Source: Mojavia pulchra JT2-VF2
Lineage (GTDB): Bacteria > Cyanobacteriota > Cyanobacteriia > Cyanobacteriales > Nostocaceae
Assembly: GCA_019359325.1 (NCBI GenBank)
Contig: JAHHHN010000002.1
Span: 248,001-312,000 of the forward strand
Reading direction: 5' to 3'
DNA length: 64,000 nt
This document shows, piece after piece, positions 31,905 through 46,257 of this stretch. The position numbers and the translations under genes are program-made. The stretch's first letter is position 1, and each line of letters starts with the position of its first letter. Below the pieces are notes generated by a model. The model was not told where the DNA came from and did not search any database. It saw only the letters and a program-made list of their open reading frames with translations.

Positions 31905-31976
31905 GGGCGATTAGCACAGGGGTAGCGCACATCCTTCACACGGATGGGGTCACTGGTTCAAATCCAGTATCGCCCA
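31905..31976 (+). tRNA. tRNA-Val(CAC), attachment site of the CAST
   Basis: Acceptor GGGCGAT/ATCGCCC, anticodon stem CATCC/GGATG with loop TTCACAC (anticodon CAC), T arm ACTGG TTCAAAT CCAGT, discriminator A; 72 nt and intact. The 17 bases GCGCACATCCTTCACAC (31925-31941) are the target of the CAST's delocalised guide; GGTA (31921-31924) just 5' is its PAM. The transposon starts 7 bp past the tRNA 3' end, so the tRNA remains functional. Confidence 0.95.
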
Positions 31977-31983
31977 CTTATAT

Positions 31984-32145
31984 TGTCGATTAACTAATTA
32001 TTTGTCGTCGTTAACAGATTATTGTCGTCATTAACGATTTAAATGTCGTCTTAACAAATTGTTGTCGTCGATTTATACCATAGATTCGTTAACAAATTAA
32101 TGTCGCTGAAAAAAATGTAGAGTGACGAATTATTTGTCAAGCAGT
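31984..32145. repeat. CAST left end with TnsB-type iterons
   Basis: Repeated TGTCG(TC)-TTAAC units occur from 31984 on (about 31984, 32002, 32022, 32047, 32064 and 32100, with a weaker GTGACGAATTATTTGTC near 32123). They share the pattern of the right end and are the expected TnsB binding sites. The A/T-rich 32146-32275 that follows shows no gene. Confidence 0.85.
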
Positions 32146-32275
32146 ATTTTTGCAAATTCATGCCGTTCAAAAGCAGCATGATCGTCGTTAGCTAATAAAG
32201 TAATAATTTTCTTGAAACCATCTGAACTATTAATAACGCATTGATACCATCAAAATTAATTGAGTAATTTTAATG

Positions 32276-32330
32276 GTGTGAAGGATGTGCGCCTTTCAAC
32301 CCTCCCATAAAATTAAACCGCAATGACAAC
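32276..32330 (-). ncRNA. Delocalised guide: degenerate repeat plus tRNA-targeting spacer
   Basis: Read on the minus strand, a degenerate repeat (about 32330-32293) keeps the spacer-proximal GGGTTGAAAG of the CRISPR repeat but not its 5' half. It is followed by GCGCACATCCTTCACAC (32292-32276), identical to tRNA-Val(CAC) at 31925-31941. The match stops after 17 nt. This is the known V-K layout for homing to tRNA genes by a single-copy guide outside the array. Confidence 0.9.
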
Positions 32331-32427
32331 CATTTTAAACTTTAAGTTTCACTCAATGCACCCCTTAGTTAGGCTAGTTGATGAAAGCTATATTACAAAT
32401 GCTATCTTTGCGATTTAGATACAATGA

Positions 32428-32834
32428 TTTTCAACCCACCCCTAGCCGGAATGGTTGTTGAAACAAGCCGCAAATTTTTGCTAGCTATCTGGAGTCCTTT
32501 CAACCCACCCCTAGCCGGAATGGTTGTTGAAACTTATAGGGTAACCGCCCTTGGAGGGGAATACTAAAGCTTTCAACCCACCCCTAGCCGGAATGGTTGT
32601 TGAAACTTTCCCTGTTCCGATTTCATCACCCTCGCCTTGCTCCCAGTCGAACTTTCAACCCACCCCTAGCCGGAATGGTTGTTGAAACCAATTCACCCGG
32701 AACCTCAATTACACCGATGCGGCCTTTCAACCCACCCCTAGCCGGAATGGTTGTTGAAACTCTACTTTGGTTGGTATTTGAGAAATTAACTGAACCTCTT
32801 TCAACCCACCCCTAGCCGGAATGGTTGTTGAAAC
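32428..32834 (-). CRISPR. Type V-K CRISPR array, 6 repeats and 5 spacers
   Basis: 37-bp repeats at 32428, 32497, 32570, 32652, 32724 and 32798. In transcript orientation (minus) each repeat begins GTTTCAACAACCATTCCGG and ends GGGGTGGGTTGAAAG. The leader side is at 32834; the most distal repeat has its last base changed (T at 32428 on the plus strand). Spacers, distal to proximal: 32, 36, 45, 35 and 37 bp. All five spacers differ. No cas1/cas2 is present, as is usual for V-K. The array lies downstream of the tracrRNA and cas12k in the same direction. Confidence 0.97.
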
Positions 32835-33029
32835 CCCTGCCGCCTAGACTCCTTGCAAATAAAGCTTTCCAGGTAAAAATTTGGCATATCTCTGAAAAAG
32901 CTTCCTTTGTCTCATATCAAAAAACTAAATCAACTGACATAGTAGCTTCTGAAGTTAAGACACTACAAGGGTTTTAAGATTTTGGCAGGACTCCAGGGAT
33001 TTTGCCCCCGCTTCGACATGCCAAAAAAA

Positions 33030-33297
33030 TATTTGAGAGGGTTCCCCCGACGAAGGGGGTGATTCAGTAGCCACCACTGCGGTAACCCGCACCGTTGAGA
33101 ACAACGGCTACAGCTAAAAGCCTTACTCCTTATTGCTGGGAGCGCACCTATCCCATCTATAGAATTCTACAGATGGCAGCATCAGAAGCGGGCAGCTACC
33201 AGGGTCAGAAAGCATAACGGTTTTCCAACCGTCAAACTAACCCAGATTTATCGCAGCACATTGGCTCAAAGAGCATGAACTGCGGCGCTGTTCATCT
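33030..33297 (-). ncRNA. V-K tracrRNA
   Basis: Between cas12k and the array the minus strand reads like the Scytonema V-K tracrRNA: GCGCCGCAGTTCATGC near the 5' side, GGGTTAGTTTGAC, CTTTCTGACCCTGGTAGCTG, GATAGGTGCGCTCCCAGC, GTGGCTACTGAATCACCCCC, then GGGGGAACCCTC. The last AACCCTC (33035-33042) is an anti-repeat for the GGTGGGTT part of the crRNA. Several hairpins are visible, such as CCATCTGTAG/CTATAGATGG. The ends given are approximate. Confidence 0.92.
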
Positions 33298-33340
33298 TAT
33301 ATATTAGGTTTTCAAGGTACTGTAGTTGTGTTTAATTTGA

Positions 33341-35260
33341 TTAAGCAATTCGATATTGATAAGCAAACAAAGCTAAGTCTCTTGCTTGTTCTTGCGGACT
33401 GCCTTTAGTTGGTTGTTGTCCTGTTTCGATAACAATCCCAACTTTTGCTGATTGGGTATTGATGCTTTCAATTAACCTGCCATAGCTCCAGTTATGGACG
33501 CTTATACGATAAGACTTAGCATAGTTTTTTTGCCCTTCAACAAAACCAGGTATTTTGTTTTCGGCTTTGGCTTGTACTTCGCTTTGAATTATTTCCCGCA
33601 TGTCGCTAAGTTTTGGCACAACAATAGTTCCTGCTCCATAGGTTTTAGCAACCGCTACAATTTCCTTGGCTAATAGTCTATCTACATATTGTCCCAGTGC
33701 TGATTCGCCAAAATTATTTGGAGCAAACTGTTTTTGGGATTTATGCCTTTCTTGGGAAAGACGCTTTTTTTGCTGTCGCTGGCGATTTAATAAATTGTAC
33801 TTACTGCCTAATAATTGTTTGGTACTGCGATATGCGAGGACTTTATTGCTAACTGCATCAAATACAGCTATAGTTGCAAGTTTTTCTAAACCAAGGCTAA
33901 CACCTACTATAATATGAGATTTACCTTGGTACAAAGGTTTGCTAGGACGAGAAAATGGAGTTTTGATTTTAGCTAGTGTAGACTTTTTGCGAATCACATC
34001 AGCTTGTTGCTGAGAATTTAACCCTCCTTCTTCTTTTTCTTTTTCTTGGGCTTTAGCTAATTTGTCTTGAACACCTGTAATTTTTTTCTCTATAACTTGT
34101 TGAGTTCCTTGCGAAGTAAGCATAAGGGTATCAAGAGAGCAAAAAAGATGTAGACGGGATAGATTCCAAGGTTGTCCTTTTCCTGCTTGCTCTGACCAAG
34201 CTATTCGTCCCGATCGCAAAGTGAATAGGGCACTAGAGTGTTGGTTTTTCCCCTGGCGTTTGGTTTCTTGGTCTTCAAGAAAGCGATGAAATAAATACAG
34301 GTGTCTTTTATCGCAAAATACTTCAAATTTCAGCTTGCTTAACCCATTAAAGCTTACAAATAATCTGCCTTTATCATTCATTTCCCATTTCATATCTTCG
34401 TTTGTTTCGTAAAGGACTGGGAAAGGAAGGTTACTAGATTTTCTTAAAAGTCCAGCTTGCCAAGATTTAGCTTCGTTCTCATCTTTAAAAGTAGTACTAA
34501 CTGCTTGCTCTAAAGTAGACAACCATCGTTCACCCGTCAAATCTCTTCCTTTGGGAACTCTACTTTTAAGTTGGTCTTTTAATCTTTCTATTTCAATTTC
34601 TTTTTTTCGTCTTTGTTTTAAATACTTATCAATATCTTCTTCATTAGAGTTAATTTTAAAATTATTTTTTAGGAGATATACTATAGCACATTGCGTTAAA
34701 GTATCTTCGGCTTGAAGATAAGATTCAAAAAGTACACTAGATGTTATTTTTGGTGATTGAACGGTCTGTACCTGCTTCTGATTTTTTGGCTTTATAGATT
34801 TAAGCTCTATATTTTTTGTCCTCTGTGCATTTAAAGAAATTAATATTTCACTGGCTTTTTGACGAATAGTTTCTATTGTTGAATTGCTTTCTTTCTCAAG
34901 TTCAGCATCGCTTTTGAGCATGTTTAGCCATCGTTCCTTTCCTTGTATTTTCCGTTGCAGTTGCCGATTTAATTTTAACCAAGATTTATATATGTACTTA
35001 ACTAATGTTGTTGCAGAAGTGTAAAAACGACCGGGTTGACCTGCAAAGGGTTCTTGATTTTTGAGAAAGTCACATAGTTCTTTAATAACAGTTTTGGGGA
35101 CTATAGCATCTTCAACCCAAGTTTTAAAGTCATCATGTTTTGCTAATCGCTCCAATATCTCATTTGCCAGGGGCGTATTTTTCTCTGCCATTAGCTCCCA
35201 AAGATGGCGGAGTGTTTCTTCTTCAGCAACCAAGCGACATTGAATTGTAATAACGCTCAT
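33341..35260 (-). CDS. cas12k: Cas12k, nuclease-inactive RNA-guided effector of the CAST
   Basis: 639 residues, close to the 637 of Scytonema Cas12k. It binds crRNA/tracrRNA, recognises a GTN PAM and recruits TniQ/TnsC rather than cutting. Family blocks: FAGQPGRFYTSATTLVKYIYKSW-like N-terminal segment, MPKGRDLTG-type VPKGRDLTGERWL, SSNLPFPVLYETNEDM, RFLEDQETKRQGKNQHSS, then the degenerate RuvC parts VGVSLGLEKLATIAVFD, GTIVVPKLSDMREI and TKGSPQEQARDLAL, in which the usual Asp/Glu/Asp catalytic set is missing. It has its own promoter, shared with a divergent Arc-type regulator. Confidence 0.96.
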   Translation of the reverse strand: MSVITIQCRLVAEEETLRHLWELMAEKNTPLANEILERLAKHDDFKTWVEDAIVPKTVIKELCDFLKNQEPFAGQPGRFYTSATTLVKYIYKSWLKLNRQLQRKIQGKERWLNMLKSDAELEKESNSTIETIRQKASEILISLNAQRTKNIELKSIKPKNQKQVQTVQSPKITSSVLFESYLQAEDTLTQCAIVYLLKNNFKINSNEEDIDKYLKQRRKKEIEIERLKDQLKSRVPKGRDLTGERWLSTLEQAVSTTFKDENEAKSWQAGLLRKSSNLPFPVLYETNEDMKWEMNDKGRLFVSFNGLSKLKFEVFCDKRHLYLFHRFLEDQETKRQGKNQHSSALFTLRSGRIAWSEQAGKGQPWNLSRLHLFCSLDTLMLTSQGTQQVIEKKITGVQDKLAKAQEKEKEEGGLNSQQQADVIRKKSTLAKIKTPFSRPSKPLYQGKSHIIVGVSLGLEKLATIAVFDAVSNKVLAYRSTKQLLGSKYNLLNRQRQQKKRLSQERHKSQKQFAPNNFGESALGQYVDRLLAKEIVAVAKTYGAGTIVVPKLSDMREIIQSEVQAKAENKIPGFVEGQKNYAKSYRISVHNWSYGRLIESINTQSAKVGIVIETGQQPTKGSPQEQARDLALFAYQYRIA

Positions 35261-35322
35261 GGTGTCCTCAGCTTTGTGGTTTCGGTAAAACTGACAGGGT
35301 TATTAATTTTTTTACTGAGAAT

Positions 35323-35360
35323 ATTATAGCGCAATAGCGCAATAGCGTAATGACGCAAAT
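35323..35360. promoter_or_regulatory. cas12k promoter overlapped by 8-bp operator repeats
   Basis: On the minus strand TATAAT (35328-35323) lies 63 bp ahead of the cas12k ATG. Starting at its upstream edge, plus-strand AGCGCAAT repeats at 35328, 35336 and (AGCGTAAT) 35344, with a relaxed GACGCAAAT at 35352. The repeats thus occupy the -10 to -35 spacer and the -35 zone, the expected place for a repressor made by the divergent gene 35420-35593. Confidence 0.65.
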
Positions 35361-35419
35361 GTTTTTTTCCTGAGAGGCTATGCAAAAATAAAAGCCGCAA
35401 GCTTTGGCTTCAAATTAGG

Positions 35420-35593
35420 ATGGCAGAAGAAACTAGAGAAGTTCGGGGGAGACTCCCTAAAGACCTAAAAATCGCGTTTGAAATCGCCTGTGCGCGTCTG
35501 GAAGTGACGCAGACTGCGGCTTTGGAGGAGGCGATTCGAGATTGGTTGCAAAAAAAAGAGTCCCCTGGTGGTGACAAGGCGCAGGGGAGTTAA
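35420..35593 (+). CDS. Arc-type (ribbon-helix-helix) putative CAST repressor
   Basis: 57 residues: EVRGRLPKDLKIAFEIACARLEVTQTAALEEAIRDWLQKK. A beta strand followed by two helices is the RHH pattern. It is read divergently from cas12k, where many V-K elements keep a MerR-type CvkR; V-K systems with Arc-like regulators are also known. TTAGGA just ahead of the ATG is a plausible ribosome site. Expected to bind the 8-bp repeats in the shared upstream region and repress cas12k. Confidence 0.7.
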   Translation: MAEETREVRGRLPKDLKIAFEIACARLEVTQTAALEEAIRDWLQKKESPGGDKAQGS

Positions 35594-35864
35594 AGGGTTA
35601 TGGTTACAATTGCTGTAATGCTTGTATAATATATGGCATAAAACTGTTTAGTAACAGTTTTCTTAACTTGGTTAAGAAACCTAGGTTTAAACTTAATATT
35701 TAGTTGCAAAGTCTAATCCAAGCTTGGAAATCTTAGATTAGATTAACTATTTACACTGTTATATTCGTAACATAGCATCTTAATGAAGCGAAGGCTCCTT
35801 TCACTTTATAGGTGTAGAATTATGAGCCAAGTTATTGATATTAAAAATTCCACAGTAAGGCTAA
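35594..35864 (+). promoter_or_regulatory. Upstream region of the cargo hsdM operon
   Basis: It contains a good -10 (TATAAT in TTGTATAATATATGG, about 35624) and, just after it, two palindromes: AAACTGTTTAGTAACAGTTT (about 35641-35660) and CTTAACTTGGTTAAG (about 35663-35677). Near the end an ATG at 35822 opens a 16-codon reading frame (MSQVIDIKNSTVRLNV) whose TGA overlaps the hsdM start, a possible coupling leader. Nothing else is seen. Confidence 0.5.
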
Positions 35865-37379
35865 ATGTTTGAGCAAACTTTTAAAAATATTGATGATGTT
35901 CTCTGGAAAGAGGCGGGTTGTACTACAGAGTTAGATTACACTGAGCAAACGTCTTGGTTGCTGTTCCTGAAGTATTTGGATGATTTGGAGCAGGAAAGAG
36001 CGTTGGAGGCGGAGTTAGCTGGCAAACAATACGAATTTCTTATTGATGAGGCGCATCGTTGGTCATCTTGGGCAGCACCGAAAAAAGCAGATGGTACATT
36101 GGATCATGATAATGCGCTGATTGGCGATGATCTAATTGATTATGTCAACCGCAAGTTATTCCCGTATTTACAGAGTTTCAAGCAACGGGCTACCAGTCCA
36201 GACACAATCGAATACAAGATTGGGGAAATTTTTAGCGAGATTAAGAATAGGTTTCAAAGCGGCTACAGCTTGCGAGATGCGCTGGAATATATTGATGAGC
36301 TACGGTTTAGATCGCAACAGGAGAAACACGAGCTATCGCATCTCTATGAAGCCAAAATCAAAAATATGGGGAATGCGGGGCGCAACGGTGGAGAATATTA
36401 CACACCGCGTCCGTTGATTCGCGCAATAATTCAAGTGGTGAAGCCGAAGATTGGCGATCGCATTTATGATGGTGCTTGTGGTTCGGCTGGGTTTTTGTGC
36501 GAGAGTTACGACTATTTACGTCGGGGGAAGCTGACAACAAAAGAGCTTGAAATACTGCAAAAACATACGTTTACGGGTAAAGAAAAGAAAAGTTTGGCGT
36601 ATGTGATAGCCATAATGAATATGATTTTGCATGGCATTGATGCGCCGAATATTATCCACAACAATACGCTGACGGAAAATCTCAGTGATATTCAAGACAA
36701 GAATCGTTTTGATGTCATTTTGGCTAACCCGCCATTTGGGGGGAAGGAACGCAAGGAAGTACAGCAGAATTTCCCGATTAAGACTGGGGAAACGGCGTTT
36801 TTGTTTTTGCAGCATTTCATCAAAATGCTGAAGATGGGCGGTAGGGCGGCAGTGGTAATCAAAAATACATTCCTGTCAAATTCGGACAATGCTTCGCGGG
36901 CGTTGCGTCAAGAGCTTTTGAGTAGTTGCAATCTGCACACGATTTTGGATTGTCCGAGTGGGACTTTTATCGGGGCGGGAGTAAAAACGGTGGTGCTGTT
37001 TTTTGAGAAAGGAAAGCCCTTCGATGCTGTTCAGGGAACGCCGTTATTTTCTCAGGGAAAACCTTTAACTCAGGGAATGGCAACTCAGAAAATTTGGTAT
37101 TACCAACTCGATCCTGGGCGTAGTTTGGGGAAAACAAATGCGCTGAATGATGAAGATTTGCGTGAGTTTGTAGATTTTCAGGCTACGTTTGCAGAGTCGG
37201 AAAAGTCTTGGTTAGTGGATATTGCTGATATTGATCAGGTAACGTTTGATTTGTCGGTGAAGAATCCGAATAAGGCTGAAGAATCGACGTTACGAGAACC
37301 GCAAGAAATTTTGGATGAAATTGCAGCTTTGGATGCGGAGAGTGCAGAGATTTTAGCTGGTATTGGGGGGATGGTATGA
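35865..37379 (+). CDS. hsdM: Type I restriction-modification methylase subunit HsdM
   Basis: 504 residues. HsdM N-terminal domain (1-140; QTSWLLFLKYLDDLEQERA), then the methylase domain with GGEYYTPRPLIRAIIQ, SAM motif YDGACGSAGFLCESY and the adenine-methylase motif NPPFGG. With HsdS it should make m6A at a bipartite site. It is cargo of the CAST. The stop overlaps the hsdS start (GTATGA). No hsdR is found in the element; and hsdS carries a stop, so activity depends on rescue by other S subunits or readthrough. Confidence 0.94.
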   Translation: MFEQTFKNIDDVLWKEAGCTTELDYTEQTSWLLFLKYLDDLEQERALEAELAGKQYEFLIDEAHRWSSWAAPKKADGTLDHDNALIGDDLIDYVNRKLFPYLQSFKQRATSPDTIEYKIGEIFSEIKNRFQSGYSLRDALEYIDELRFRSQQEKHELSHLYEAKIKNMGNAGRNGGEYYTPRPLIRAIIQVVKPKIGDRIYDGACGSAGFLCESYDYLRRGKLTTKELEILQKHTFTGKEKKSLAYVIAIMNMILHGIDAPNIIHNNTLTENLSDIQDKNRFDVILANPPFGGKERKEVQQNFPIKTGETAFLFLQHFIKMLKMGGRAAVVIKNTFLSNSDNASRALRQELLSSCNLHTILDCPSGTFIGAGVKTVVLFFEKGKPFDAVQGTPLFSQGKPLTQGMATQKIWYYQLDPGRSLGKTNALNDEDLREFVDFQATFAESEKSWLVDIADIDQVTFDLSVKNPNKAEESTLREPQEILDEIAALDAESAEILAGIGGMV

Positions 37380-38593
37380 ACCAGAGGTGGATAAAGAAGA
37401 GATTAGGAGAAGTATGTGAAATCTCGTCAACACTTGTAGATCCTCGCAAACCTGAGTTCATCAATCTACTTCATATTGGTGCTGGGAATATGATTTCAGA
37501 AACAGGGGATCTGGTTGATATTAAAACAGCTAAAGAGGAAGGGCTAAAATCCGGGAAATTTTTATTTGATAGAACTATGGTTCTTTATAGTAAGATCCGC
37601 CCATATCTTATGAAAGTTGCTAGACCAGACTTCGATGGCTTGTGCAGTGCGGATGTATATCCTCTATCACCGGATACTACTCAATTAGATCGGGACTTCT
37701 TGTTTTATTTACTAATAAGTAGGGAATTCACTGAATACGCAATTGAAGGGTCAAGTCGGGCTGGAATGCCTAAGGTTAACCGCGATCATCTGTTCAACTT
37801 TACTACTTATATCCCACCGCTCCTAGAACAAAAACGGATTGTGGTGATTTTGGATGAGGCGTTTGAGGGGATTGATAGAGCGATCGCAAACACTGAAAAA
37901 AACCTTGCCAACTCTTGAGAACTATTTGAAAGCTATCTAAATGCTGTTTTTAACCATAAAGGCGATGGGTGGGAGGAAAAGTATTTAGGAGATATAGCTG
38001 AACTTATAGATTCACTTCATAAGACACCTTCTTATATTGATGAGGGGGGCTTTCCAATGGTAAGAGTAACTGATATTAAAGATGGGGTCTTAAACCTCAG
38101 TAATGCGCGTAGAGTTGATAATTCAACCTTTGTTGAATTTTCTAAAAGACATACACCAAAAATAGGAGATATTGTTCTCTCTCGTGTTGGTTCTTATGGT
38201 GTTCCAGCTTTAGTTGAATCTGATGAATTATTTTGTCTTGGACAAAATACTGTTTTTATAATTCCTCAAATAAATTCCCAGTTAGTTTATTTTTTCTTGA
38301 GAAGTCCTAATTGCCAGCAGCAAATAGAAAAATTCGTTGCTGGTACAACACAAGGAACTATCAGTTTGCAAAGCATAAAAAAAATTCGAGTTCCAATTCC
38401 GCTATATTCTGAACAAATTACTTTAGCCTCAGAAATAAGTTGTGTCTTAAGAAAAACCCAAAGCCTTGAAATCATCTACCGCCAAAAAATCGCTGCACTC
38501 AAAGAACTCAAACAATCCATCCTGCAAAAAGCATTCACTGGCGAACTCACCGCAGATACCCCAAAAACTGCTAAACAGGAAATGGCAGCATGA
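37376..38593 (+). pseudogene. hsdS: Type I specificity subunit HsdS, split by an in-frame TGA
   Basis: The frame from 37376 to 38593 would encode 405 residues, the normal HsdS size. The first target-recognition domain (1-150; RWIKKRLGEVCEISSTLV, PPLLEQKRIVVILDEAFEGID) ends in the central helix. There a TGA at 37916-37918 (after LANS) interrupts ELFESYLNAVF, which normally continues the helix. The second half (from 37919; EEKYLGDIAELID, VPIPLYSEQ, LKQSILQKAFTGEL) is intact in the same frame. A TGA from CGA (Arg) would explain it. Half-subunits from 37376-37918 might still dimerise. Confidence 0.85.
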
Positions 38594-39189
38594 GCGATGA
38601 TTTGACGAAACCAAACGATCTGTTATTTCAAGAAATTCGGCAATTGATTGACACCGCCAAACAACGCGCCGCCGTTGCCATCAATGCAGAAATAACTTTG
38701 TTATATTGGCAAGTTGGTAAACGCATCCAAACCGAAGTTTTACAAGGTCAACGGGCTGAATATGGCAAACAAATCATTGTTTCTTTATCTCAGCAGCTAA
38801 CGCAAACCTATGGTAAAGGCTGGGGTGAAAGACAACTGCGACATTGCCTCCAGTTTGCTGAGACATTTCCAAATATCGAGATTGTGAACACACTGTGTTC
38901 CAAATTGAGTTGGTCACATCTGCGACTTTTAACAGCAATAGACGATCCCCTAAAACGAGAATTTTATATTGAAATTGCCCAACTGGAACGATGGAGCGTC
39001 CGCCAACTGCAAGAACGTATTAACTCTATGCTATTTGAGCGCACTGCCCTATCCCGCAAACCCGAAGAAACCATCCGCCATGACTTAGAGCAACTGCGCC
39101 AAACTCAACAGGTATCACCCGATATTTTACTCAAAGACCCTTTAAATTGCGGGTTTTACTACGTTCAACATATTCAATTGCTTCGGTAA
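38590..39189 (+). pseudogene. DUF1016 (YhcG-type) protein truncated before its nuclease domain
   Basis: 199 residues. The DUF1016 N-terminal domain is intact: LIDTAKQRAAVAINAEITLLYWQVGKRI, GKQIIVSLSQQLTQTYGKGWGERQLRHCLQF, LSWSHLRLLTAIDDPLKREFY. It should run on at SPDILLKDP into a PD-(D/E)XK nuclease domain of about 150 residues, but the sequence instead turns into the complement of the neighbouring TPR gene and stops. The ATG overlaps the hsdS TGA. DUF1016 genes often sit between hsdS and hsdR, which suggests what was lost. Confidence 0.8.
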
Positions 39190-41506
39190 TCTTATTTAAT
39201 TCGCAGCAAACTTCTACCATGCGGCTATAAACTTGGTTAAAGTGTTCCGCTTGTTTGCGCTTGGTTTCTTCTCCAGATACTATTTCTTCTCGTAAAGATT
39301 CTATAGTTGCAATGGCAGACTCAAAAGTATTGTACGCTAAGTCAAACTGGTTTGCGTTTTGGTAAGCAATTCCTAGCCCCCACAAAGTTTCTGTATAGTC
39401 TTGGGGAAAAGCTTCAAAAGTCCTAACTTTCAGAGCCTCTTTGTAAGTAGCGATCGCTTTGTCAATGTTATCTGCCCTGTCTCCTTTGATTCTATTGCTG
39501 TAGGCATTGGCGAGATTATTTTGCGTTACAGCCCAATCAACAGGGAATTCTTCCCTAGTGTAGACAGTTAAAGCAGCAGTGTAAGCAGCGATCGCTGTTT
39601 CAATGTTATCTGCCCTGTCTCCTTTGATTCTATTGCTGTAGGCATTGGCGAGATTATTTTGCGTTGCAGCCCAATCAACAGGGAATTCTTCCCTAGTGTA
39701 GACAGTTAAAGCAGCAGTATAAGCAGCGATCGCTTTGTCAATGTTATCTGCCCTATCTCCTTTGATTCTATTGCTGTAGGCATTGGCGAGATTATTTTGC
39801 GTTGCAGCCCAATCAACAGGGAATTCTTCGTTGGTTCTGACAGTTAAAGCAGCATTATAAGCAGCGATCGCTGTTTCGATGTTATCTGCCCTGTCTCCTT
39901 TGATTCTATTGCTATAGGCATTGGCGAGATTATTTTGCGTTGCAGCCCAATCAACAGGGAATTCTTCGTTGGTTCTGACAGTTAAAGCAGCAGTATAAGC
40001 AGCGATCGCTGTTTCAATGTTATCTGCCCTGTCTCCTTTGATTCTGTCATTGTAAGCAGCAGCGAGATTATTTTGCGTTGCAGCCCAATCAACAGGGAAT
40101 TCTTCCCTAGTGTAGACAGTTAAAGCAGCAGTATAAGCAGCGATCGCTGTTTCAATGTTATCTGCCCTGTCTCCTTTGATTCTGTCATTGTAAGCAGCAG
40201 CGAGATTATTTTGCGTTGCAGCCCAATCGACAGGTAAAGCTTCCTTGGTTCTGACAGTTAAAGCAACAGTATAAGCAGAGATCGCTTTTTCGATGTTATC
40301 TACCTTTTCTTCTTTGATTCTATTGCTATAGGCATTGGCGAGATTATTTTGCGTTGTTGCCCAATCAATAGGTAAAGCTTCCTTGGTTCTGACAGTTAAA
40401 GCAGCAGTATAAGCAGAGATCGCTGTTTCGATGTTATCTGCCTTATCTCCTTTGATTCTATTGCTGTAGGCAAGAGCGAGATTATTTTGCGTTGTTGCCC
40501 AATCAACAGGGAATTCTTCCCTAGTGTAGACAGTTAAAGCAGCACTATAAGCAGAGATCGCTGTTTCAATGTTATCTGCTCTGTTTCCTTTGATTCTGTC
40601 ATTGTAAGCAGCAGCGAGATTATTTTGCGTTACAGCCCAATCAACAGGGAATTCTTCCTTAGTGAAGACAGTTAAAGCAGCAGTATAAGCAGAGATCGCT
40701 GTTTCGATGTTTTCTGCCCTGTCTCCTTTGATTCTCTCTCTGTAGGCATTGGCGAGATTATTTTGCGTTGCAGCCCAATCAACAGGGAATTCTTCGTTGG
40801 TTCTGACAGTTAAAGCAGCATTATAAGCAGAGATCGCTGTTTCGATGTTATCTGCCTTGTCTCCTTTGATTCTATTGCTGTAGGCATTGGCGAGATTATT
40901 TTGCGTTGCAGCCCAATCAATAGGTAAAGCTTCCTTAGTGCAAACTTTTAGCACAACTTCATAACCAGTAATAGCAATTTCCATATTGCTGGCTTTGTTA
41001 GCCCAGGGGAATTGCTTAATAATATTGCTAAATTCGACAATAACTGCTGCTAAGTATTCTGCCTCATCTGCTTGGACTTTTCTCAGTATATTTGTCCCCC
41101 AACAGCGCAATATTTCTGCTAACGCTCCGTCAAGTTTACCTATATTTTTTGCTAGTAAGGGGTAAACTACCTGGCAATTACCCATACTGTTTTCAGTTAC
41201 TTGTAATACCTCCATCAAGAATTGAAAATATGCTTTTATCTCCTCCTCACCTAGGGATTGCAAATCTACTGTAGTATCTAGATTCAACGCTTCCATTGGT
41301 TGCATTGCCAAACCTTGCAACCAATTCGCTGTTTTTTCATCTCCCTGTTGCAAAAATATCTTTGTTACTGCTTCTACCGTCTGTAAGAAGCCAACATCTA
41401 CTAATCCTTGGTTTGCTGCTAAAATCTCTCGGATTTCATCGTCACTACGACAATTCAACAGGCTTTGAATAAGGTTGAGATGGGCTTGCTGACGCTTTTC
41501 GTTCAT
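39131..41506 (-). CDS. TPR-repeat protein, apparently truncated before a CHAT-type effector domain
   Basis: 791 residues. The N-terminal helical region (1-200) is followed by 11 near-identical 46-residue TPR-like repeats (WAATQNNLANAYSNRIKGD, then NIETAIAAYTAALTVYT). The last block, ALKVRTFEAF then EYVERSKTRNL, is the usual lead-in to a C-terminal CHAT (caspase-like) domain in cyanobacterial TPR-CHAT proteins. Here it ends three codons later (KGL, stop) where the truncated DUF1016 gene begins on the other strand. I chose ATG 41506 (MNEKRQQAHLNLIQSLLN), which fits the family start; the GTG at 41527 is an alternative. Confidence 0.85.
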   Translation of the reverse strand: MNEKRQQAHLNLIQSLLNCRSDDEIREILAANQGLVDVGFLQTVEAVTKIFLQQGDEKTANWLQGLAMQPMEALNLDTTVDLQSLGEEEIKAYFQFLMEVLQVTENSMGNCQVVYPLLAKNIGKLDGALAEILRCWGTNILRKVQADEAEYLAAVIVEFSNIIKQFPWANKASNMEIAITGYEVVLKVCTKEALPIDWAATQNNLANAYSNRIKGDKADNIETAISAYNAALTVRTNEEFPVDWAATQNNLANAYRERIKGDRAENIETAISAYTAALTVFTKEEFPVDWAVTQNNLAAAYNDRIKGNRADNIETAISAYSAALTVYTREEFPVDWATTQNNLALAYSNRIKGDKADNIETAISAYTAALTVRTKEALPIDWATTQNNLANAYSNRIKEEKVDNIEKAISAYTVALTVRTKEALPVDWAATQNNLAAAYNDRIKGDRADNIETAIAAYTAALTVYTREEFPVDWAATQNNLAAAYNDRIKGDRADNIETAIAAYTAALTVRTNEEFPVDWAATQNNLANAYSNRIKGDRADNIETAIAAYNAALTVRTNEEFPVDWAATQNNLANAYSNRIKGDRADNIDKAIAAYTAALTVYTREEFPVDWAATQNNLANAYSNRIKGDRADNIETAIAAYTAALTVYTREEFPVDWAVTQNNLANAYSNRIKGDRADNIDKAIATYKEALKVRTFEAFPQDYTETLWGLGIAYQNANQFDLAYNTFESAIATIESLREEIVSGEETKRKQAEHFNQVYSRMVEVCCELNKITEAIEYVERSKTRNLKGL
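39407..40924. repeat. 11 tandem 138-bp repeats coding for TPR units
   Basis: Each unit encodes 46 residues beginning P(V/I)DWA. Neighbouring units are almost identical at the DNA level (for example those at 39500-40200), with two main variants of the last third (YTREEF and RTNEEF or RTKEAL) that alternate along the array. This points to recent duplication or gene conversion between units. Confidence 0.9.
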
Positions 41507-41732
41507 GGGTAAGGGAAGGGCGTACACATCACACTTAAATACGATGAAACTAATACAATACCGACATTCTAGATTCCAGAAAAGTACAGAACTTTATCAC
41601 TTGTGATGAATATTAACAATAGCGATCACCCTGCATTTACATTCAAAGAAACTAGCTGCTGAAGCTTTTAAGATAGATAATCTTTTAATGGCGAATGAAT
41701 ACAATTGCTCTGCAATGCTCAAGATCGTGAAA

Positions 41733-41993
41733 TCACACTACTTCAACGATAGAACTTTCCTTGCCATCGTTATCATTGGGCACATATTCCAAAAGTTCCC
41801 CAGGTTGACAATCCAATGCCTTACAAATGCCATTTAACCTTTCTGGGGTTAATCGTGGCATTTCATCAACCTTACGTAGCCTGTACACTGAATTTTCAGT
41901 TATTCCTAACGCCTCAGCTAAATTCTTATTCCTCACTCGCTTTCGCGCCATTACTTCATTTAATTTCCAGCGAATCACTTTATCCATAGGCAT
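41733..41993 (-). CDS. XRE-family HTH regulator in the CAST
   Basis: 86 residues. The HTH is at about 8-65: RWKLNEVMARKRVRNKNLAEALGITENSVYRLRKV, then RLNGICKALDCQPGELLEYVPN, a Cro/CI-like fold with no other domain. It lies between cargo and the transposition genes and has a cluster of GTAGAT/ATCTAC half-sites upstream, so it probably represses itself. A role in controlling tniQ-tnsC-tnsB or the 42214 gene is possible but unproven. Confidence 0.85.
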   Translation of the reverse strand: MPMDKVIRWKLNEVMARKRVRNKNLAEALGITENSVYRLRKVDEMPRLTPERLNGICKALDCQPGELLEYVPNDNDGKESSIVEVV

Positions 41994-42026
41994 ATTACTA
42001 CATCCCCAGTTTAGTAGCTGTTAGAT

Positions 42027-42127
42027 GTAGATTTCTCTACTCGTCATTATTTAAGTTTAGAAGTAGATTTATATCATTCTAAGTTTTATAAATCTACACT
42101 TGACGTATATCTACACGTCACGTAGAT
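42027..42127. promoter_or_regulatory. Cluster of GTAGAT/ATCTAC operator half-sites
   Basis: A perfect inverted repeat GTAGATTTCTCTAC (42027-42040) is followed by GTAGAT at 42063, ATCTAC at 42092 and 42109 and GTAGAT at 42122. They lie directly upstream of the XRE gene (start 41993) and ahead of the plus-strand gene at 42214, so they are likely binding sites for the XRE protein. Confidence 0.6.
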
Positions 42128-42144
42128 TAATTGATAGACAAAAC

Positions 42145-42186
42145 AAAAGCGATCGCTCTCCGGGAAGAGTCCGCGATCGCCTTTTG
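42145..42186. other. Hairpin with HIP1 octamers in both arms
   Basis: AAAAGCGATCGC (42145-42156) pairs with GCGATCGCCTTTT (42173-42185) around a GC-rich loop. It lies in the leader of the 42214 gene, so it could act as an attenuator or simply insulate the two divergent genes. Confidence 0.45.
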
Positions 42187-42213
42187 CGGAACCCCATCGA
42201 TGAGGTTACTTAG

Positions 42214-42516
42214 ATGATTGTACAAGAAGAGTTTGATAACCAAACCTCGGCTCAATTAGGGTTTGAGGAATACATTGAGCAGCTAACAGACCAAGTAGCG
42301 CCAGAAATTGAAATCGATTCAGTACCAGATGATCTTGGAGAACTGTATCGAGTTTGGAACAGCTATCATCTGCTGGGAACTTTTTATCAGAACGTTGAAG
42401 GCAAATGGGTAGCACAACCCTGTAATAGCGATGACAGACCCTGTTGTGACACCCCTGAATTAGCACAGCTATTCATCATTGCTGTTAACGGGTTGCTGGT
42501 GGCTGATGTAGCGTAA
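42214..42516 (+). CDS. Hypothetical protein within the CAST
   Basis: 100 residues, acidic at the N-terminus (EEFDNQTSAQLGFEEYIEQLTDQVAPEIEIDS-style), then a compact mixed segment (YRVWNSYHLLGTFYQNVEGKW) with CNSDDRPCC and a hydrophobic end (FIIAVNGLLVADVA). I do not recognise it. A GAGG ribosome site nine bases ahead of the ATG and its own terminator at 42546-42580 argue that it is a real gene. It lies tail to tail with tniQ. Confidence 0.6.
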   Translation: MIVQEEFDNQTSAQLGFEEYIEQLTDQVAPEIEIDSVPDDLGELYRVWNSYHLLGTFYQNVEGKWVAQPCNSDDRPCCDTPELAQLFIIAVNGLLVADVA

Positions 42517-42545
42517 CCACTGGCATAAATTTTTTTCCATCGCCT

Positions 42546-42580
42546 AGAGACGTGAATTTCAGCACGTCTCTTTCTTGTTT
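42546..42580 (+). terminator. Terminator of the 42214 gene
   Basis: AGAGACGTG (42546-42554) and CACGTCTCT (42563-42571) form a nine-pair stem followed by TTCTTGTTT on the plus strand. It also lies between the convergent hypothetical gene and tniQ. Confidence 0.75.
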
Positions 42581-42619
42581 AAAGTTATTTTAGGTAGAAA
42601 ATTTAGCTGTCTAGTAACC

Positions 42620-43123
42620 TCAGTAACGCTTCTGACGTTTCGCCATTGTTGCAAACGGCAAAAAACAGTGAGAACATTCCCCTTGTACCCAATCAGAAGG
42701 AATCGGGAAAGGGGTTTCACAGTTAGTACATTTAGTTAATAAGCCTAAGTTGTGGCGATCGCATTTCATCTTATCTTTGAATTGCCACTTCATACGGTGA
42801 TAAGGTACTTCTGCATAGCAAGCACCACATAACCTAATTGGTCTGGGTTTCATAGTCACACCCTTTGGTGGCAGAATCTCTCTAAGCTTCTCAACTTCCA
42901 CACCAACTATACCAGCCAAAGCTTCCAACTCCTGCTGTGTCGGAAACGGGTTGAAATAAAACTTCTCCCACCTACCAATAACAGCACCTAAACCAGTCAA
43001 TTTACCAAGTTGAGTAGTAGTTAAATAATTCTCCCTACGAAAGCGTCCTAAAAAATGGCTTAAGCTTTCACCTTGGAGTAGTTCAATATCAAAAAATCTG
43101 GTTTTTTTCTCTATATTTTCCAT
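42620..43123 (-). CDS. tniQ: TniQ, target-selection adaptor of the CAST
   Basis: 167 residues, the same length as Scytonema TniQ. The N-terminal TniQ helical part (LQGESLSHFLGRFRRENYLTTTQLG) and four zinc-finger Cys/His pairs (CGACY, CDRHN, CTNC, CSHC) are visible. It links Cas12k with the TnsC filament. The ATG shares its first base with the tnsC TAA (TAATG), so it is translated with tnsC. Confidence 0.95.
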   Translation of the reverse strand: MENIEKKTRFFDIELLQGESLSHFLGRFRRENYLTTTQLGKLTGLGAVIGRWEKFYFNPFPTQQELEALAGIVGVEVEKLREILPPKGVTMKPRPIRLCGACYAEVPYHRMKWQFKDKMKCDRHNLGLLTKCTNCETPFPIPSDWVQGECSHCFLPFATMAKRQKRY

Positions 43124-43959
43124 TACTCAAACCACTCCAGAACCTCATCTAAAGTTGCTTTATCGATATTACTTAACCCTTTTCTCAAAGATAAAATTGC
43201 TGTTCGTCTTAAAACCCTATCTACCAAACCAATCTTGCCACCTGTTTTTTGGTACAACGGCATTAAAGTTTCTTTTCTAGTTAAATTTGATGGTACTGGT
43301 AAACACAAAACTTCATCTTCCCAAATTTGTAATAACTCAGCAAATTTTTTCTCTGACACTAATTGCAAACGATAACATTCGATGAAACGGTCATGAATAT
43401 AAGGCTCCTTCTTGATGAGATTATCCAGACCATCAGTTCCCACAAGCACAATTGCAATTTTCAATAAATCGTAAATCCGAGCTATTTCGCTAAAGGTATT
43501 TAATTTCAAAAAATTTGCTTCATCAATAATCAACATTTCGACTTTTGACTCTTTAATGAGCCGCAGCACTCGTCGTCGCAAATCAGTCAATTTACCCGAA
43601 GTTGCATCATATTTCAAACTTTCTAAAATTAATGTTAGTAGTTCCCCTGCCGAACAATCCCCTGGAACTTGCATATACAAGACAGGTACAATATCACGCT
43701 TACCTGTTCTTTTTTGCGGTTTATTCAGGAGTTTATAAACATCACAAGTAACTGACTTCCCCGCTCGTGGTGGCGCAACAATTCGACCACATTGTTTGGA
43801 AAGACGCAAACTATCCAACCAATCATGAATTCTTTGGATATGGTCAAGCTCTACTACGCTGGGAGTAATCAGCCGTTCAATTTGTGGCATCAATTCTTCT
43901 GGTATTGGGTCATCTCCCCATAAATTCTGTACCCATCTACGCAAAGATTCATCTGTCAT
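43123..43959 (-). CDS. tnsC: TnsC, AAA+ ATPase regulator of the CAST
   Basis: 278 residues; Scytonema TnsC has 276. It forms a helical filament on DNA and hands the target to TnsB. Walker A reads APPRAGKS (about 62-69), with Ala where the consensus first Gly stands, then Walker B MLIIDEANFL. Sensor and arginine-finger regions follow (IVLVGTDGLDNLI). It is the middle gene of tnsB-tnsC-tniQ, with about 55 bp to tnsB. Confidence 0.95.
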   Translation of the reverse strand: MTDESLRRWVQNLWGDDPIPEELMPQIERLITPSVVELDHIQRIHDWLDSLRLSKQCGRIVAPPRAGKSVTCDVYKLLNKPQKRTGKRDIVPVLYMQVPGDCSAGELLTLILESLKYDATSGKLTDLRRRVLRLIKESKVEMLIIDEANFLKLNTFSEIARIYDLLKIAIVLVGTDGLDNLIKKEPYIHDRFIECYRLQLVSEKKFAELLQIWEDEVLCLPVPSNLTRKETLMPLYQKTGGKIGLVDRVLRRTAILSLRKGLSNIDKATLDEVLEWFE

Positions 43960-44013
43960 AATCTGTGAATATCGAATATTTTATTTGCTTAATTTCGACC
44001 GATTTCTATCAAA

Positions 44014-45750
44014 CTAATCGTCATAATCTCGACGAAGTTGTTCGTAGTCATATACTCTAGGTCGCCGCTTTTGTAGCTGAGGTGTTTCTTGTGTTTGTTC
44101 AACTGGTTCGTGAATTTGAGGAGGCTTGTATACCGAATGAACTTGAGCTTGTTCTTCTTTTTTATGTTCTCTTTGGCTCTTTTTCTTCTGCTTTATAAAA
44201 ACGTCCCTATCCCGCACCTCTGCCAGAATAGATTTATTACTTACCTGCTTACCCGTATCCCGAATTTTTCGACTTGCTGCTTTCGCTTCTTCCAAGGAAA
44301 TCTGCTCTGTTTCTAAGTCAATTGCATGAGCCTGAGACAACAACACTTCTTTACCCGAATCTTGACGATATACAAAAACTGTTGATATGTCTCTAGGGTC
44401 AAATCGCAGTATTACACCCTCACCCGCATAAGCTGCTAAGTATTCCCCCCGGTAGGTAATGTTTTCAAAACTCACATACCCACCTTTGTAAATACTGCGG
44501 CGTGTCTTTTTCATCAAACAAATATCTAATTGCCGCTCGTCAATTAAACTTGGTAGTGCAGGTAAACCAGCTTCCCAGCGTTGAAACCGCGTTTGTCCGC
44601 TACGAGCATCAAGTCGCTGATTGTAGTTATCAACAACATAGCGAACAATTAGTAGTTGTAAGTCTCGCAGCGTAATACAAGCTTCTTCTTCGGCATTTTC
44701 TGGACGTTGCTGAATATTAGAACCTAAATAGCCATAAAACCCAGATAAAAAATCTGTGTTGATAGTACCGAAACTGCGTTCTTCAATACCACCTTCACTG
44801 GGGCGATCGCGTAAATGGCATTCAAATCCAAGTTGAAATCCAATTTGTTTTAAATGCTCCGAGCGAAAATCCTTGCCACCATCAGTAAACAAATTTTCTG
44901 GAATACCAAAGGTTCCCCACTCACAATGAAGTTTATATTCCGAAGGATACTTTTTTGGTAACACAGCATGACGCATAGCCAAAGCTACAACCAAAGAACT
45001 TGGTGCATCAAAACCTAAATGAATCCCCATAATGCACCGCGAATAGCTATCTGTAATTTTGGTCAGCCAAGGACGTGCTAAAGTTTCGCCATACTGGTCA
45101 ACCAGCATTACATCCAATTTTGTATGGTCGCACTGCCAAGTATGGTTGCTGTATCTTGGCTCCAAAGTTTGTCCATCACGGGTTTGATGCGATACCCGTG
45201 AACCACGCCAACCAATATTTCTAACTTTCTGCTTCTGCTCTTTGCGCTCAATAATTGGATTGAGAACTCGGTAAACAGTCATGTGGCTGGGGTATCTTTC
45301 TAAACCCAATTGTTCCGCTCTCACTTGAACTCGAATCGCAACTTGAGCGGGAGTCATTTTTCTACCGCTTTTATTGCCTTCCTTATAGGTTTTGACAATA
45401 AACTCTTGCCATTCCTCATCAATACGGTAATTACCTTTATCAGAACGTTCTGGTTCGGTAATAGCCGATAAACCTTGTTCTTGATACTTTTTAACAAGTC
45501 GCTGCACCGTCCGAACCGTCTTACCAAGCTTTTCTGCTGCTTGCTTAAGTTTGATTCCATAGGTTTTGCGATCGCATGGCTCAATTAAACTCTGTAATAC
45601 CTCCATCCTCAGCTTGGCTTCATCCGAGAGTTGAGTAATAATTGTGTTCGTTGGTTCTGCGTCCTCATCCTCCAAAATTTCGTCAAGCTCATCCGAACTA
45701 TCAAAAGCTAAAGATGTATTACCCTCATCGGAGTTTAGCGTTTCACCCAT
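44014..45750 (-). CDS. tnsB: TnsB, DDE transposase of the CAST
   Basis: 578 residues from the chosen start. Two HTH domains (about 60-180; KTVRTVQRLVKKYQEQG) precede the RNase H-like catalytic core. From this start, the DDE triad is D208 (WQCDHTKLDV), D290 (FTDGGKDF) and E324 (EGGIEERSF), matching positions 205, 287 and 321 of Scytonema TnsB. A beta-barrel and a C-terminal tail ending YDYEQLRRDYDD (the TnsC-contacting hook) follow. ATG 45750 has GGAG nine bases ahead; the upstream ATG 45813 lacks a ribosome site. Confidence 0.95.
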   Translation of the reverse strand: MGETLNSDEGNTSLAFDSSDELDEILEDEDAEPTNTIITQLSDEAKLRMEVLQSLIEPCDRKTYGIKLKQAAEKLGKTVRTVQRLVKKYQEQGLSAITEPERSDKGNYRIDEEWQEFIVKTYKEGNKSGRKMTPAQVAIRVQVRAEQLGLERYPSHMTVYRVLNPIIERKEQKQKVRNIGWRGSRVSHQTRDGQTLEPRYSNHTWQCDHTKLDVMLVDQYGETLARPWLTKITDSYSRCIMGIHLGFDAPSSLVVALAMRHAVLPKKYPSEYKLHCEWGTFGIPENLFTDGGKDFRSEHLKQIGFQLGFECHLRDRPSEGGIEERSFGTINTDFLSGFYGYLGSNIQQRPENAEEEACITLRDLQLLIVRYVVDNYNQRLDARSGQTRFQRWEAGLPALPSLIDERQLDICLMKKTRRSIYKGGYVSFENITYRGEYLAAYAGEGVILRFDPRDISTVFVYRQDSGKEVLLSQAHAIDLETEQISLEEAKAASRKIRDTGKQVSNKSILAEVRDRDVFIKQKKKSQREHKKEEQAQVHSVYKPPQIHEPVEQTQETPQLQKRRPRVYDYEQLRRDYDD

Positions 45751-45979
45751 AAGATAACTCCATTGCTGGAAATTCTGTAAATACTTAAAGCTGCTTCTAA
45801 TAAAAAGCTGCATCTCACACCCTCAACTTCGGTATTGAGATGCGAAACTTAGCTGCCACAAAGCTCCTCCGAAAAAACTCGTCTCCAAGTGCTGTTCTTG
45901 CAACTATAGAGAATGAGGCTTTAGTCGGAGCATGACATAATTAGTATGTGTGTATTATTGCTCAATAAATATCATACTA

Positions 45980-46257
45980 CTTTGTCCCAAAAAACGACAT
46001 TTAATTGTTTATTAACGAACTACTTATACAAAACGACAATTATTTTGTTATGAATCAATCAAAATTTGGAAATCGATTATTTTGACAAAACGACAAATAA
46101 AATGTTAATTATTTAAATAGCGATATTTAATTTGTTCAACCTTTATAAAAGTTGAATGGAAGCTAAAAAAGCTATAATCTTTGTGCAGTGAGGATTGTAG
46201 CCTTAATATTTCAACGACATTAATTTGTTAAGACGACATTTAATTAGTTAACCGACA
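45980..46257. repeat. CAST right end with iterons
   Basis: Repeated CGACA(TT)-(T)AA-TTGTTA units occur at about 45993, 46031, 46089, 46213, 46233 and 46253, in inverted orientation to those of the left end. The terminal unit reads TTAACCGACA. The region also must carry the tnsB promoter. A/T-rich spacers show no gene. 45751-45980 shows nothing else. Confidence 0.85.

Follow-up and report, generated by a model that had tools for sequence, protein, structure and literature searches.

Organization of the element

The window, a stretch of 64,000 nucleotides from Mojavia pulchra JT2-VF2 that was analysed as a whole, carries a type V-K CAST next to an intact tRNA-Val(CAC) gene (Table 1). Such elements are known only from cyanobacteria (PMC11406308). 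The terminal inverted repeats are imperfect and start with TGTCG, and a clean 5-bp target duplication was absent, as the 5-nt flanks read TATAT and ATATA and have only ATAT in common.

Table 1. Features of the CAST and of its attachment site in the window.
Feature	Position	Strand	Basis and remarks
tRNA-Val(CAC), attachment gene, intact	31905..31977	+	ARAGORN; Rfam RF00005, 61 bits at 31905-31976
GTA PAM	31922..31924	+	Sequence; 59 nt between PAM and transposon end
Anchor protospacer	31925..31941	+	tRNA positions 21-37, anticodon (starts at 33) included
Type V-K CAST	31984..46257		14,274 bp; ends TGTCGATTAACTAAT / (reverse complement) TGTCGGTTAACTAAT; imperfect inverted terminal repeats I1, I2, I7
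A/T-rich hairpin directly 3' of spacer	32248..32275	-	Fold z -2.5
17-nt anchor spacer (delocalized guide)	32276..32292	-	100% complementary arm to protospacer (inverted pair I18)
Truncated repeat R*	32293..32308	-	Base -11 at 32303, A on minus strand
CRISPR array, 6 repeats of 37 nt	32428..32834	-	Rfam CRISPR-DR15, 6 hits; direct repeat D4
Predicted tracrRNA anti-repeat segment GAACCCTCTCAA	33033..33044	-	Can pair with R* 3' part; consensus site
Cas12k	33341..35260	-	NCBIfam NF038191, 903 bits (cut-off 150); PDB Cas12k chains, e.g. 7n3o
Small ribbon-helix-helix protein, divergent from cas12k	35420..35593	+	Pfam PF21432, E 3e-15
TniQ	42620..43123	-	Pfam PF06527
TnsC (TniB/AAA)	43123..43959	-	Pfam PF05621, PF13401
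TnsB transposase	44014..45813	-	Pfam PF09299 Mu-transpos_C; rve under its cut-off

In V-K elements the array and the tracrRNA are described as lying on the same strand, with a small DNA-binding protein encoded divergently to cas12k (PMC9938897), and based on this position and its Pfam match the small ribbon-helix-helix protein is likely an Arc-type CAST regulator. Pfam scans of 10 proteins detected neither TnsA nor HsdR; positions 39131-41527 and 42214-42516 were scanned by NCBIfam only. Between the ends, the cargo comprises, among others, a type I methylase (HsdM), two HsdS pieces and a DUF1016 protein (Pfam). HsdS is split into two ORFs (37376-37918 and 38057-38593) adjoining HsdM. A 798-aa protein encoded at 39131-41527 contains 138-bp direct repeats, corresponding to 46 residues each, which look TPR-like by eye, and gave no NCBIfam match. 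A Cro/C1-type HTH protein (41733-41993, PF13443) is placed between the cargo and tniQ.

An empty site with joined flanks was not found among the relatives searched, that is, 30 radC loci and 20 kinase loci. None of the 30 radC loci had a match to the histidine kinase of the right flank, and the tRNA 17-mer was present in none of the 20 kinase loci, a search in which the 17-mer of the window itself, 14 kb away, would be invisible too. In two genomes (G101 and G450) a tRNA-Val gene lies near radC with no CAST end within the 120 nt shown, and the right-flank kinase is absent there. At a further locus, L172 (G300:C69), TTTTGTCGAATAACTA, which resembles a lone CAST end, comes after a tRNA-Val(CAC) gene near radC; the ∼670 nt past it showed no more conspicuous end repeats of this kind.

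A delocalized guide matching tRNA-Val(CAC)

The 17 nt read on the minus strand from 32292 to 32276 (GCGCACATCCTTCACAC) are identical to positions 31925-31941 within the tRNA-Val(CAC) gene, which bears out the first-pass annotation of this site as a homing guide outside the array with an exact 17-nt match to that tRNA, and its assignment of the guide to the minus strand, from 32330 to 32276, was likewise correct. The anticodon does lie inside the protospacer here, as had been stated. Directly 5' of the spacer, GGGAGGGTTGAAAG corresponds to the repeat's 3' end, with a single substitution relative to the array form GGGTGGGTTGAAAG. The remnant amounts to 13-14 of the 37 nt of the repeat; thus, the spacer-proximal part has indeed been retained, as annotated, but to call it a half was generous. 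The first base of R* is 135 nt away from that of the nearest array repeat, which places the truncated repeat outside the array.

Identity between guide and tRNA gene ends past nucleotide 17, with only one of seven positions matched from 18 to 24. A search of the 8.19-Mb genome for the 17-mer, allowing two mismatches at most, recovered the guide and target sites alone, and a control with the reversed pattern gave zero matches. Protospacers of V-K elements usually lie in a tRNA gene pointing at the left end, with the PAM 46-82 nt from that end, and the distance from the PAM to the left end in the window falls inside this published range (PMC9938897). A promoter scan for the guide returned three consensus sites versus 2.5 expected in shuffles.

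Guides in other Cas12k loci

For comparison, 100 further Cas12k loci were taken from the matches listed by two overlapping whole-genome searches, one of the phylum (386 genomes, 35 with a match) and one of the family (217 genomes, 106 with a match), giving 101 loci with the window; this set includes identical copies, such as L053 and L054 or L060 and L061. An earlier contig search for relatives had given 78 pattern matches and no confirmed relative. A candidate guide was defined as GTTGAAAG followed by a 17-nt stretch of which a second copy stands outside, behind GTN, with up to two mismatches tolerated in the motif and likewise in the copy; the GT of the PAM was demanded and its third base left free. 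In this manner a guide was found in 88 of the 101 loci, the window included, and none in the other 13. As scrambled motifs used as decoys (20 draws, 19 distinct) yielded a mean of 1.6 and a maximum of 10 loci out of 101, chance is excluded for the guide class. The PAM was GTA in 48 of the 88 guides.

Guide and target were identical at each of positions 1-17 in 75-88 of the 88 loci and at each of positions 18-24 in 20-29 of them, a drop which makes the 17-nt length sharp for the whole set. Since this group-wide length agrees both with the published anchor, composed of an R* of ∼12 nt and a spacer of usually 17 nt with a GTN PAM (Ziemann et al., 2023; PMC9938897), and with the 17-bp RNA-DNA heteroduplex held by Cas12k in the ShCAST transpososome (PMC9876797), we read the 17 nt as the entire recognized stretch rather than as the short seed that had appeared to be enough in the first-pass annotation. 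The least matched of the 17 positions is position 15 (75 of 88). Of the nine guides directed at tRNA-Ala(CGC), eight deviate at this position, breaking GCGATCGC, the HIP1 palindrome, which is present in the target.

The protospacer lay within a tRNA gene in 77 of the 88 loci. The anticodon was covered in 47 of these 77; 21 protospacers were situated 3' of it, and nine overlapped it partially or missed it on the 5' side. The anticodon was consequently rejected as an obligatory part of the target, and the anticodon stem-loop, put forward earlier as a conserved target, does not constitute a rule. In two loci, L072 and L156, the last ordinary array unit, rather than a delocalized guide, seems to guide insertion; these guides have a full repeat and a spacing of 75 and 73 nt, respectively, and no tRNA was recognized at their targets.

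tRNA-Val(CAC) was the target in only two of the 88 loci, the window and L126, and a pattern search with the guide of the window in the 217 family genomes recovered only the genomes of these two. Their guide regions are 69% identical over 420 nt, a stretch that includes part of the tRNA itself, whereas their Cas12k proteins are 57% identical and fall in separate clades of the tree; such similar guide regions despite distant Cas12k proteins hint that homing modules move between elements. The hairpin that follows the spacer in the window was seen in one relative only, again L126. As a general 3' signal such a hairpin was discarded, the mean z being -0.34 over the 88 loci and -0.50 over 176 background stretches.

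Predicted pairing of R* with the tracrRNA

At the base 11 nt before the spacer (position -11), the truncated repeats usually differ from the array repeats that accompany them, and the R* base there looked complementary to the tracrRNA region. In the Cas12k complex, crRNA and tracrRNA form a duplex with a bulged stem and a three-base triple helix (PMC11246509). In the window, the 3' part of R* alone is predicted to form 10 pairs with the anti-repeat segment (-16.8 kcal/mol), among them a -11 pair of 32303 with 33038; with all 37 nt that precede the spacer, the best predicted duplex lay elsewhere in the region. Overall, the full array repeat gave the stronger predicted duplex in the window (-28.6 versus -24.7 kcal/mol).

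Throughout the set, tracrRNA sites were deduced from sequence. As a site picked as best for R* favours R*, a comparison in which each repeat was placed at its own best site, where R* won 51, tied 11 and lost 13 of 75 cases, stands beside one at a neutral site, chosen by pairing at -6 to -10, -12 and -13 of both repeats without regard to -11. The neutral site could be scored in 86 of the 88 loci, 74 of which passed our chosen threshold of 12 of 14. Above this threshold a Watson-Crick pair at -11 was predicted for R* in 64 of 74 elements, against five of 66 (plus one G-U) for the array repeats, and without the threshold in 69 of 86 against nine of 75. Among over-threshold elements homing to a tRNA the figures were 59 of 63 and three of 55; in those with no recognized tRNA target, R* paired in five of 11. 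The predicted duplex at the neutral site was -13.9 kcal/mol for R* and -11.7 kcal/mol for the array repeat, that of R* being stronger in 56, equal in three and weaker in seven of 66 elements.

A site chosen by pattern, without use of R*, was available in 66 of the 88 loci (22 were dropped), and is doubtful for L073 and L104 because better-pairing sites exist there. It gave a -11 pair for R* in 62 of 66 and for the array in four of 59. In this set, positions -6 to -10 and -12 paired about equally in R* and array repeats; at -15, R* paired in 37 of 66 and the array in three of 59, with a further 25 G-U pairs in arrays, and at -13, -14 and -17 it was the array repeats that paired more often.

Ten of the 74 over-threshold elements break the -11 rule at the neutral site (L044, L063, L072, L073, L104, L107, L111, L142, L156 and L160). 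Three of them, L073, L104 and L111, have a pair in the array repeat but none in R*, and in L044 a different site pairs better with R*. The guides of L072 and L156, which are ordinary array units whose repeat is complete, keep the array mismatch.

Proposed homing mechanism

Directly evident from the DNA are the genes, the guide-target match with its PAM and its spacing, how rare the 17-mer is, and the recurrence of this anatomy in 87 of the 100 other loci, and the guide's match to the tRNA-Val gene explains the position of the CAST beside that gene. We are highly confident that the guide, composed of R* and the 17-nt spacer, together with Cas12k directed the insertion beside tRNA-Val(CAC); transcription, loading and insertion are the presumed steps. 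A minus-strand RNA of 13-14 nt of truncated repeat and the 17-nt spacer would pair with the tracrRNA and load Cas12k, which upon recognition of the GTA PAM would open a 17-bp R-loop within the tRNA-Val(CAC) gene. TniQ, TnsC and TnsB would then insert the element ∼60 bp downstream, its CRISPR-side end adjoining the tRNA and the tRNA left whole. The truncated repeat may function by restoring the -11 pair with the tracrRNA that is usually missing in array repeats.

Alternatively, the element might have been inserted by an array spacer or unguided, the 17-nt match being due to chance or a dead relic. The element does possess a six-repeat array, and much off-site V-K insertion has been noted in heterologous hosts (reviewed in PMC11406308). 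However, when the six stretches that follow the repeats, the last one beyond the terminal repeat, were compared with ∼1 kb of each flank, none matched with fewer than four mismatches in 17, and the best, with four, lacked a GTN PAM, against zero mismatches and GTA for the anchor spacer, so that the homing-guide reading survives the search for a better-fitting spacer. The 17-mer, moreover, has no third site in the genome, and the arrangement of guide and target recurs in 87 of the 100 other loci; we thus consider insertion by an array spacer or without a guide very improbable.

For the -11 base itself our judgement is evenly balanced. The compensating base may complete the duplex of R* and the tracrRNA anti-repeat, with the array repeats in that element left mismatched. 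Two structurally distinct classes of guide would then share a single tracrRNA and a single Cas12k, and the element might in this way switch between homing and spreading. It is plausible that array repeats hold a bulge at -11 which R*, devoid of the 5' part, would close. The difference might instead reflect shared ancestry, that is, an early split followed by drift, with an extra pair that has no function, an explanation that we regard as possible though rather doubtful. In its favour are the exceptions, 10 of 74 elements with three in which only the array pairs, and the small number of independent events: a Cas12k tree with 96 proteins shows six changes of the tracrRNA base at -11 of the neutral site, and in four independent pairs R* followed on average in 1.6 of 4, far from significance. 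Against it, R* never opposed the tracrRNA in those pairs and the array followed in 0.3 of 3; the contrast of 64 of 74 versus five of 66 is strong; and the two full-repeat guides side with the arrays. An earlier choice of site had given 2.6 of 3 for R* and 0.5 of 3 for the array. A tree test of co-change at -11 cannot reach significance, and because the independent events are few, the contrast between a paired R* and a mismatched array is a lead.

If it holds, the compensating base could account for a functional guide being built from about a third of a repeat, and for the separation of homing from array guides within an element; the -11 pair would then also help in designing short single guides for V-K tools. 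The base goes unmentioned in the architecture section of PMC9938897, and no statement of an R*-tracrRNA pair at -11 was recognized in the literature searched, which was seen in part and covered few subscription papers.

Comparison with known systems

The anatomy of the guide in the window, its 17 nt included, has already been published (PMC9938897): R*, 17-nt spacer, GTN PAM, tRNA target and layout are alike. Reviews agree in outline on this architecture (PMC11406308, PMC11656645, PMC8730458, PMC12719977), one of them giving as an example a 13-nt repeat and a 17-nt spacer directed to tRNA-Leu (PMC12719977). Nothing in the window differs in kind from the anchor of Ziemann et al.; what it adds is a natural target, tRNA-Val(CAC), shared by two of the 88 guides here, and a clean count in which 17 nt is the rule and agrees with the structure. 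The Cas12k of ShCAST, the V-K prototype from Scytonema hofmannii, is homologous over its full length (query 1-638 of 639), whereas the two elements differ in sequence. Saito in 2021 and Hsieh and Peters in 2021 reportedly wrote the primary papers on V-K homing.

The att guide of type I-F3 CASTs is likewise a dedicated delocalized homing guide (PMC11656645, PMC8730458). Type I-F3 elements use Cascade, in contrast to the Cas12k of the window element. They are not known to have a tracrRNA.

The host genome contains two further V-K loci, L039 (G000:C78) and L073 (G000:C46), which carry anchors of their own to tRNA-Cys and tRNA-Thr; in one of this pair Cas12k was matched in two pieces only.
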